A DNA stretch of 49,960 nucleotides, from positions 1 through 49,960 of the forward strand of contig JACTMI010000038.1 in NCBI GenBank assembly GCA_014584695.1. The letters run 5' to 3'. Origin of the DNA: Acidobacteriota bacterium (GTDB lineage: Bacteria; Acidobacteriota; Thermoanaerobaculia; Multivoradales; JAGPDF01). Under the pieces are notes generated by a model that ran no database searches, had not been told where the DNA came from, and saw nothing but the letters and a program-made list of their open reading frames with translations. The position numbers and the translations under genes are program-made. Positions 34,759 through 43,847 of the stretch are shown here, one piece after another (within the stretch, counting starts at the first letter, position 1; each line of letters begins with the position of its first letter).

Positions 34759-34907
34759 GTGACCTCGAGACGACCTGAAAAGCGTCCATAGATGGGGGTG
34801 GTGGGCGCTTCACTGGTGGCGAAGGTCGATCGACCTCTCCTCCGCGAGCGAGGCCGCGCCGAAGGCACCACGGTGCCGAGGAAGCTTTTTCCATCTATGG
34901 GCTTTTC
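34759..34907 (+). repeat. Structured intergenic element, copy B
   Basis: The second copy lies 30 bp after copy A. The outer stem is CCATAGATGG (34786-34795) with CCATCTATGG (34891-34900), a perfect 10 bp match, extended by GAAAAGC/GCTTTTC. The second stem is GGCGC (34804-34808) with GCGCC (34856-34860), a U-A to C-G compensatory difference from copy A. The inner hairpin GGTCG-AT-CGACC (34824-34835) has a changed loop base. GGCACC/GGTGCC (34864-34869, 34872-34877) is kept although the intervening loop has lost 9 nt. It runs into the pyrimidine tract. Confidence 0.6.
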
Positions 34908-35009
34908 TCTTTGCTTCTTTCTTCTTTCTTCTCTCTTCCTTTCTCTTTCTTCTTTCTCCTTTCCTCTCTGCTTTTCCTCTTACTTCTCTCCCCCCTCCTG
35001 CCTCTTGCT
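34902..35009 (+). other. Near-pure polypyrimidine tract
   Basis: About 108 nt contain only five purines on the plus strand (34913, 34970, 34982, 35000, 35007), and pyrimidine bias continues to ~35040. It is composed of irregular CTT/TTTC/CTCT runs, in a genome otherwise rich in G+C and balanced between strands. It has no coding sense. Such DNA can form triplex structures, and as RNA would be a U/C-rich single strand suited to Rho or an RNA-binding protein. Confidence 0.7.
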
Positions 35010-35180
35010 TCGGGTCTTCACTGCTGCCTCTTGCTCTCTTCGCGCGCCCGCTAGGTCAGCTCGTGCGCGTGTGGGGCGCGTGGGGCTTTTTCTACCCAGC
35101 GGGCGCGGGGGTGCGTGGTACGATTTTTCGGCCTCGGCGGGGCGATCGAGTTTCTGCCTCGAACACCTGGCCTGGCCTAG

Positions 35181-41750: not shown

Positions 41751-41787
41751 TTGACACGCGGGCCGATTTACATAAACATTCGGTTAT
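41751..41787 (+). promoter_or_regulatory. arsR promoter and operator overlapping the start codon
   Basis: TTGACA (41751-41756), a 16 bp spacer and TAAACA (41773-41778) form a promoter whose start point would fall about at the ATG (41786), giving a leaderless message. ATAAACATTCGGTTAT (41772-41787) is an imperfect palindrome of the ATAACC-N4-GGTTAT type. It covers the -10 and the start codon, a typical ArsR autorepression site. Confidence 0.6.
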
Positions 41788-42244
41788 GGTACTGCACGGT
41801 TATCTACGGAGAACCGAGGAGACGCTGAACGCGACGTTCGGGGCGTTGGCGGATCCGACGCGGCGGGCGATCCTGGCGCGGTTGATCGAGGGGGAAGCGT
41901 CGGTGGTGGAGTTGGCGGCGCCGTTCGAGATGTCGCAGCCGGCGATCTCGAAGCACTTGCGGGTGCTCGAGCGGGCCGGGCTGATCTCGATCGGTCGCGA
42001 CGCCCAGCGGCGGCCGCGGCGGCTGGAGGCGCGGCCGCTGGGCGAAGCCGCCGAGTGGCTCGAGGGCTACCGGAAATTCTGGGAGGCCTCCTACCAGCGC
42101 CTCGATGCCCTGCTCGAGGAAACTGGGCCTCGAACCGGATCCGATGCCCCGTCCCCCTCTCAGTCCTCTTCGAAGTTCGGGCGCTCTACCGGTCGGAGTG
42201 GGCAGCGTAGTCGGAAGTTGGAGCTCGGGAAGAAGACCAAATGA
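41786..42244 (+). CDS. ArsR-family regulator (SRPBCC-associated type)
   Basis: The 152 aa winged-helix repressor has ATFGALADPTRRAILARL, SVVELAAPFEMSQPAISKHL and RVLERAGLISIGRDAQRRPRR-like sequence followed by EAAEWLEGYRKFWEASYQRL. This is the metal-independent ArsR subgroup encoded with AHSA1/SRPBCC genes. There are no metal-binding cysteines. The last ~40 residues (PRTGSDAPSPSQSSSKFGRS onward) are Ser/Lys-rich and not part of the family. In related operons the regulator usually abuts the SRPBCC gene. Here 208 bp containing a repeat element separate them, so the 3' end has probably been rearranged. Confidence 0.88.
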   Translation: MVLHGYLRRTEETLNATFGALADPTRRAILARLIEGEASVVELAAPFEMSQPAISKHLRVLERAGLISIGRDAQRRPRRLEARPLGEAAEWLEGYRKFWEASYQRLDALLEETGPRTGSDAPSPSQSSSKFGRSTGRSGQRSRKLELGKKTK

Positions 42245-42245
42245 G

Positions 42246-42378
42246 GGACAGAAGCCTTTCAGACAGGGCCTTGGAGCCCATCGTGGCGACCGGCCCAGCA
42301 CACCTGCCATGCGCGCTCACCCTCTTCTCTGGGCTTTTCTGTCCGTGGAGACCAACTCCCACTGGTGAAGACCCGAAG
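42246..42378 (-). repeat. Dispersed structured repeat, copy D (inverted relative to copy C)
   Basis: GGACAGAAGCC (42246-42256) pairs with GGCTTTTCTGTCC (42332-42344), enclosing ~75 nt. Read on the minus strand, it shows GAAAAGCCCAGAGAAGAGGG, resembling the GAAAAG..CCCATAGAAGGGGG left arm of copies A and B. Minus-strand 42374-42263 aligns without gaps to plus-strand 43719-43830 at 83 of 112 positions (hand count). It sits between arsR and the first SRPBCC gene. Confidence 0.55.
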
Positions 42379-42452
42379 TTCAAGACCTGATCGCAGTCCG
42401 AGTCCGAGACCCGAAAGACCCCCACTGCCCGCGGGCGGAAAGGAAGCCGTCG

Positions 42453-42956
42453 ATGACACGCGCTGGAGAGCTCTCGATCACCACCCCCACCGACTGCGAG
42501 ATCGTCATGACCCGCGACTTCGGCGCCTCGTGCGAGCGGGTCTTCGACGCCCATACCCGGCCCGAGCTGGTCCGGCGTTGGCTGCTCGGCCCCGGCGGCT
42601 GGACGATGCCGGTGTGCGAGATCGACCTGCGCGTCGGCGGTCGCTACCGCTACGTCTGGGAGAAATCGGCGGGCGGCGAGAGCCATTCCATGGGCATCGG
42701 CGGCACCTACGTCGAGATCGACCCGCCCGGGCGCTTGGTCTGGACCGAGCGCTTCGACGAGGCCTGGTACCCCGGCGAGGCCGTCAACACCCTGCTGCTC
42801 GAGCAGCGGCCGGGTGGCGGCACCCGGCTGACCCTCACCTCCCTGTTCGAATCGCGCGAAGCACGCGACACCGCCCTGCGCTCCGGCATGGAGACCGGCG
42901 TCGAAGCTGGCTTCGACCGTCTCGAGCAGCTGCTCGCAGAGGAGACCTTCGCATGA
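42453..42956 (+). CDS. SRPBCC/AHSA1-domain protein
   Basis: The 167 aa START-like fold protein has IVMTRDFGASCERVFDAHTR, VRRWLLGPGGWTMPVCEID, RVGGRYRYVWE, GTYVEIDPPGRLVWTERFDE and a C-terminal amphipathic helix TGVEAGFDRLEQLLAE. It belongs to the AHSA1-like (CalC/SRPBCC) family commonly controlled by the ArsR type just upstream. Such proteins bind hydrophobic ligands; function is otherwise unknown. AAGGAAG lies 8 nt before the ATG. The stop overlaps the next SRPBCC gene (ATGA). Confidence 0.9.
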   Translation: MTRAGELSITTPTDCEIVMTRDFGASCERVFDAHTRPELVRRWLLGPGGWTMPVCEIDLRVGGRYRYVWEKSAGGESHSMGIGGTYVEIDPPGRLVWTERFDEAWYPGEAVNTLLLEQRPGGGTRLTLTSLFESREARDTALRSGMETGVEAGFDRLEQLLAEETFA

Positions 42957-43648
42957 GCGCGAGCAATCACCGCGCCACCCCGCCCGCGAGCAGCCTGGCT
43001 GATACGTCCGGCCGAAGCAGGAGCTCGAACCTCGTTGCATTCGCCGCTGTCGTGCTCGCCGCCTCCTTCGCGCTGCCCATACCCGCCACGGAACCGCCGC
43101 CACCTGCCGCCCCGGGCCAGGAGACCGCCCTGGCTCAGCAGCCAGCCTCCGCAGCCGTTCCCACGGAGGAGCGCGACATCGTCCTCGCCCGCACCTTCGA
43201 CGCTCCCGTGGAAGCCGTCTGGCGTGCCTGGACCGACCCCGAGCAGGTCGTTCGCTGGTGGGGGCCCAAGGGCTACACCAGCCCGTCCGCGAAGATCGAC
43301 TTTCGAGAGGGCGGCCGCTACGTCTTCGCGATGCGCGCGCCAGAAGCGCAGGGCGGGAACGTCATGTACACGGCCGGGACGTTCGGCAAGATCGAGCCCA
43401 TGCAGCGGATCGAGCTCACCCAGCATCTCTCCGACGCCGAGGGGAACCCGATCGACCCTGCTTCGCTCGGCTTGCCGCCCGATTTCCCCGCCCTGATCCC
43501 GACCGTCGTCACCTTCAAACCGGTCGCCGGCAAGACGACGGTGACGGTGGTCGAGTCCGGCTGGACCCCCGGCCCGATGTTCGACTACTCCGAGGCCGGC
43601 ATGAGCGAGTGCCTCGACAAGCTCGCGCAGATCCTGCCACCGCGGTGA
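42953..43648 (+). CDS. SRPBCC/AHSA1-domain protein with N-terminal signal or membrane anchor
   Basis: The 231 aa protein has a C-terminal SRPBCC domain (~75-231: IVLARTFDAPVEAVWRAWTD, QVVRWWGPKGYTSPSAKIDF, GGRYVFAMRAPE, VTVVESGWTPGPMFDYSEAG). Unlike most family members, it is preceded by a hydrophobic segment (NLVAFAAVVLAASFALPIPA, ~26-45) and a Pro/Ala-rich linker. The domain is therefore predicted outside the cytoplasm or tethered to the membrane. ATG overlaps the preceding SRPBCC stop. A shorter cytoplasmic form could only start downstream at a codon without obvious support. It is followed at once by repeat copy C. Confidence 0.85.
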   Translation: MSASNHRATPPASSLADTSGRSRSSNLVAFAAVVLAASFALPIPATEPPPPAAPGQETALAQQPASAAVPTEERDIVLARTFDAPVEAVWRAWTDPEQVVRWWGPKGYTSPSAKIDFREGGRYVFAMRAPEAQGGNVMYTAGTFGKIEPMQRIELTQHLSDAEGNPIDPASLGLPPDFPALIPTVVTFKPVAGKTTVTVVESGWTPGPMFDYSEAGMSECLDKLAQILPPR

Positions 43649-43680
43649 GCGGGCTCTCGCGCCGGGAAAAGCCAGAGTCC

Positions 43681-43830
43681 CGAGGTCACACACCGAGAAG
43701 AGACCACTCATAGAAGGAGGGTCTTCATCCGTGGGTGTGGGTCACCAGGGAAAGAAAGGACCATAGAAGGGACTGTGCGCACCTGGCGCCTGCGCTCCAA
43801 GGACCGTCACGCTGGGCTCCAAGGCCCTGT
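43681..43830 (+). repeat. Dispersed structured repeat, copy C
   Basis: The 3' part (43719-43830) is the inverted counterpart of copy D. It contains CCATAGAAGGG (43761-43771) like copy A, and the 5' part contains CTCATAGAAGGAGGG (43708-43722), as if two left arms were in tandem. The matching right arm TCTATGG is absent, so this copy is partial or degraded. It fills most of the gap between the SRPBCC gene and the phospholipase-D gene. Confidence 0.5.
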
Positions 43831-43847
43831 GCCGCAGTCTCCGCCGG

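Follow-up and report, generated by a model that had tools for sequence, protein, structure and literature searches.

An inverted pair of repeats around two SRPBCC genes in an Acidobacteriota genome very probably represents two separate insertions of an ISL3-type MITE

In the window, by which is meant the whole stretch of 49,960 nucleotides that was analysed, an arsR-family gene adjoins two SRPBCC (AHSA1) genes that are enclosed by a pair of repeats in inverted orientation (Table 1). The two repeats, at 42263-42374 on the minus strand and at 43719-43830 on the plus strand, align without gaps at 83 of 112 positions (74% identity; BLAST E value of ca. 3e-15 within the window) and form the longest inverted repeat of the 40.5-46 kb region. 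The hand count reported in a first-pass annotation of this DNA was therefore exact, and its statement that the repeats bracket the two SRPBCC genes is borne out, both genes being assigned to AHSA1 by Pfam. The repeated unit exceeds this 112-nt stretch: the copy next to arsR, hereafter copy A, measures 195 bp, and the copy located after the second SRPBCC gene, copy B, is devoid of its right third.

Table 1. Position of the MITE copies and of their neighbouring genes in the window
Feature	Position	Strand	Evidence
arsR-family regulator gene	41786..42244	+	Pfam HTH_5/HTH_20
Copy A target-site duplication, arsR side, GAAGTTCG	42172..42179		7/8 identical to 42375-42382
Copy A, complete 195-bp ISL3-type MITE (very probable)	42180..42374	-	family profile 153 bits, model positions 5-207 of 211
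Copy A target-site duplication, SRPBCC side, GAAGTTCA	42375..42382		7/8 identical to 42172-42179
First SRPBCC (AHSA1) gene	42453..42956	+	Pfam AHSA1; synteny
Second SRPBCC (AHSA1) gene	42953..43648	+	Pfam AHSA1
Copy B, MITE of another subfamily, right end missing	43719..43836	+	profile 95.5 bits, model positions 5-130 of 211

These repeats belong to a dispersed family. When copy B was used as a query against its own genome (4.35 Mb in 48 contigs, 97.8% complete), about a dozen clear relatives were found, and a profile of 211 positions built from ten full copies detected 33 to 42 matches on many contigs (E <0.001, the range reflecting filter settings), which provides the genome-wide count suggested in the first-pass annotation. 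The full element is an imperfect palindrome of 191-197 bp, typically ca. 195 bp, and is bounded by terminal inverted repeats of the ISL3 type (GGGTCTTCACC..GTGGGT / GGCGCTTCACCGG..GTGGGTAGC); in full, one end reads GGGTCTTCACC(G)GTTGGTGTGGGTC and the other, read inward, GGCGCTTCACCGGTCGGAGTGGGTAGC, the two being mutually inverted. No transposase is encoded by the element, which is too short for one, and such ORFs as overlap with copy A or copy B are either host frames or chance frames. No match to the profile occurred in any of 71 further genomes from the order, three of which are congeners, and a scan of named genomes with the terminal motif returned one lone match in Streptomyces that is probably due to chance. 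Short, multicopy and dispersed, with terminal inverted repeats like those of an IS and a target-site duplication of 8 bp, each repeat is in our estimation a copy of a non-autonomous, ISL3-family MITE of 195-bp type, with a probability of about 93%. This MITE would represent a new and apparently genome-specific family of a known kind of element.

The relationship to ISL3 is supported by the ends of IS elements from related genomes. ISL3 transposase matches were found in 33 of 148 genomes, the genome under study being among the 33, and the elements of the relatives end in GGNNCTTC...GTGTGGGT or similar sequences, several of them with exact 8-bp duplications. With a matrix derived from 20 such IS ends and from no MITE sequence, position 43719 on the plus strand ranked first (score 15.7) and position 42374 on the minus strand second (13.3) of about 99,900 window positions, the next score being 8.3; the outer end of copy A scored weakly and ranked only 18th of these. 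Both the type of terminal repeat and the length of the duplication are thus those of ISL3. As expected of a MITE, a DDE transposase gene is absent from the element, which is therefore an ISL3-related MITE and not an ISL3 insertion sequence. An ISL3 element with matching ends would carry GGGTCTTCACC / GGCGCTTCACC, and no intact ISL3 transposase with such ends was found in this draft genome, from which an intact element may have been lost at a contig break. Two C-terminal fragments of ISL3 transposase were detected, both on contig C9 (L033:3988-4350 and L033:9149-9268), and these are the only ones in the genome; the ISL3 transposase that would have moved the MITE in trans is thus inferred. The C9 remnants were considered as the parent and rejected because they have ends like those of a different ISL3 subgroup, despite a MITE-like end (GCGCTTCACGGCTCCGAGTGGGTAGCGCC) ca. 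200 bp upstream of the first remnant.

Evidence of transposition comes from the flanks of the copies and from nesting. Among the ten full copies, the 8-bp flanks match at 8/8 positions in three cases and at 7/8 in another three; when flanks were re-paired at random, none of 100,000 shuffles was as good as six of ten copies at 7 or 8 of 8. Eight further and more divergent copies include one with 8/8 and one with 7/8 at their nominal ends and a third that reaches 7/8 with a shift of one base, and no convincing duplication was seen at the flanks of the remaining five. Copies nested in older copies occur at four places, on contigs C18, C22, C41 and C43, with two inner copies in tandem on C43. When the inner element or elements are deleted in silico together with one copy of the 8 bp, the outer element is restored: its alignment to the family consensus runs through the junction and scores far better than shuffled sequences. 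At a fifth site (C41:44041), outer fragments are found on both sides together with an 8/8 duplication and the alignment does not cross the junction. Nested copies thus serve as natural empty sites that document the 8-bp duplication without need of relatives. Purines or pyrimidines predominate at the nest sites and in many of the duplications (AGGGAAAG, CCTCTTCC, AGAAGAAG), as they do in the stem of the element itself, and this may reflect a true target preference; nesting would then occur because targets tend to such tracts, the stem of the element among them.

Copy A has its left end (GGGTCTTCACC) at 42374 and its right end (GGCGCTC) at 42180 and reaches into arsR, since the complete element spans 42180-42374 with the 8-bp duplications lying outside. 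A comparison of the reading frame with and without the element indicates that the last 21 codons of arsR are almost wholly MITE sequence: with copy A the product ends in ...SSKFGRSTGRSGQRSRKLELGKKTK, and without it in ...SSKFET or SSKFKT, depending on the duplicate kept. Removal of copy A leaves a predicted single 8-bp site, GAAGTTC(G/A), followed by AGACCTGA. The first-pass annotation had proposed that the left copy stands between arsR and its usual neighbours and that relatives should be compared for contiguity. Nine relatives indeed have arsR and the SRPBCC gene contiguous, at a distance of -4 to 49 bp and with no repeat between them; this distance is 208 bp here and would be 62 bp without the insertion. 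None of the congeners carries the SRPBCC gene at an E value of 1e-10, so that no exact empty site is available for copy A. To judge from its sequence, copy A inserted in full at the 3' end of arsR and thereby opened a gap between the genes of an operon-like pair, and it may have affected expression of the SRPBCC genes.

Copy B has an intact left end (GGGTCTTCATCC) and lacks the right one; it stops at ca. 43836, about 12 bp short of the stop codon of a convergent PLD-like gene. It is 86-92% identical to copies L002-L004 and 71% identical to copy A, the longest exact run common to A and B being 18 nt. Copy B is an independent, right-truncated copy of a subfamily other than that of copy A.

Three other readings of the pair were weighed, all of them improbable. 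The least so, although we give it very little credence, is that of a regulatory RNA pair or structured RNA family whose transcripts fold or pair with each other, the first-pass annotation having evoked a long duplex. What speaks for it is that the element is imperfectly palindromic and that copy A, lying between arsR and the first SRPBCC gene, would be inside any joint transcript. However, neither copy folds better than shuffles (z-scores of 0.68 and -0.73), the covariation term is unfavourable (+1.69), there is no Rfam match, the 112-nt duplex would have 29 mismatches, and transposon ends account for the palindromy. A base-paired structure with covariation was not detected and neither was a terminator-like or promoter-like consensus site in the repeats, leaving the proposal of a riboregulator unsupported. 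Still less probable is a composite (compound) transposon in which the repeats would be the ends of one unit that brought in the SRPBCC genes. The inverted copies do bracket exactly two genes, but relatives keep these genes beside arsR without any repeat, and neither a duplication around the whole unit nor a pair of outer ends was found: copy A is flanked on either side by an 8-bp duplication of its own, the outer end of copy B is missing, and the two copies belong to different subfamilies, B being closer to other copies than to A. The bracket therefore results from two independent insertions; a mobile non-autonomous unit, as first proposed, holds for each repeat taken alone, given its dispersion, terminal repeats, duplications and nesting, and fails for the pair as one unit. 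Equally improbable is a recombination-prone pair that flips the SRPBCC genes, also evoked in the first-pass annotation, for the copies are in inverted orientation ca. 1.3 kb apart but share only 74% identity and no exact run longer than 18 nt, and the gene order is the native order of the relatives.

Under the preferred reading of two MITE insertions, both ends of the 195-bp element would be recognised by an ISL3 transposase provided in trans, which would move the element and duplicate 8 bp of the target. Copy A would have entered arsR at its 3' end, so that the native arsR-SRPBCC pair was split and the C-terminus of ArsR replaced, and copy B, downstream of the second SRPBCC gene, would be an independent insertion that became damaged. 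The locus is thereby settled as an ordinary product of transposition, neither a cargo transposon nor a riboregulator; it offers one example of a MITE that rewrites a regulator C-terminus and moves the genes of an operon-like pair apart, and changes no broader question.

The stem of the MITE contains a short purine-rich motif, CCATAGAAGGG, of wider occurrence. This 11-mer has 50 exact matches in the genome, 10, 16 and 3 in three congeners and 0-3 in the other genomes looked at, and many of its copies form part of further repeats, palindromic or tandem (189-197 bp), that have no ISL3 ends. The pair of elements at 34.6 kb (34595 and 34786 in the window) belongs with the latter: the arm said in the first-pass annotation to be common to these elements and the inverted pair is real as far as the CCATAGAAGGG stem is concerned and does not extend to membership of one family, the family model matching only the copies at 42.2 and 43.7 kb in the window. 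A long pyrimidine tract (CTTTCTTCTTTCTTC...) directly follows the 34.6-kb pair at 34900-35010. Across the genus, the CCATAGAAGGG core occurs in several palindromic types (L125, L129, L130, L131, L132, L133, L135 and L136), the arms of which resemble AAAAGCnnCCATAGAAGGGG and AAAAGCGTTCTGTTGAAGGGGGTGG, and in tandem arrays with a period of 189-197 bp and 2.6-3.2 copies (L135:285-921, L136:260-744 and L125:210-731). Tandem 16-bp units (AAAGGACCAGAGAAGG) were also seen beside arrays with a CCATTGAAGGG-type core (L120:650-750, L121:105-225 and L122:1-60), one of which runs off the contig end. Four RAYT/Y1 transposase genes are present in the genome, and such transposases were rejected as drivers of the CCATAGAAGGG repeats, the motif being absent from the fetched flanks of 17/17 genes in the genus. 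Since the MITE has a CCATAGAAGGG stem, some of these repeats may derive from it, or it may itself have captured one of them. A fuller scenario, which we consider speculative and rather unlikely, is that an ISL3 transposon captured the genus-wide CCATAGAAGGG hairpin as its body and became a self-nesting MITE with its stem as a favoured target, the arsR insertion having altered the regulator C-terminus or SRPBCC expression.

Among known systems, the closest are the ISL3 insertion sequences (Pfam DDE_Tnp_ISL3, PF01610), such as a 1533-bp element of the same order (L072) that shares with the MITE its terminal repeats (GGGTCTTCAC..GTGTGGGC / GGCGCTTCAC..GTGTGGGTAGC), the 8-bp duplication and the same left/right GGGTC/GGCGC asymmetry. 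One family copy (L008) matches the ends of this element at 18/24 and 24/30 positions; unlike ISL3 elements, the MITE is only ca. 195 bp long and encodes no transposase. ISPpu12a, another ISL3 member, has terminal repeats of 24/21 and an 8-bp duplication (PMC4133298) and, by its description, is similar to the MITE in both lengths, but is autonomous and 3.4 kb long. A MITE attributed to ISL3 has previously been reported from Methanosarcina acetivorans, where it measures 179 bp, occurs in 6 copies and has ISMac21 as partner (PMC3852290). As described, it is likewise short, multicopy and non-autonomous; it differs in its host organism and in having a known autonomous partner, none having been found here. 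Finally, bacterial MITEs fused to reading frames have been described, RPE and Correia/NEMIS among them (PMC2229807). TA termini are found in most of the MITEs listed there, whereas the present MITE has G-rich ends and 8-bp duplications; like copy A, which supplies the C-terminus of ArsR, they are small, palindromic, non-autonomous elements that provide coding sequence.
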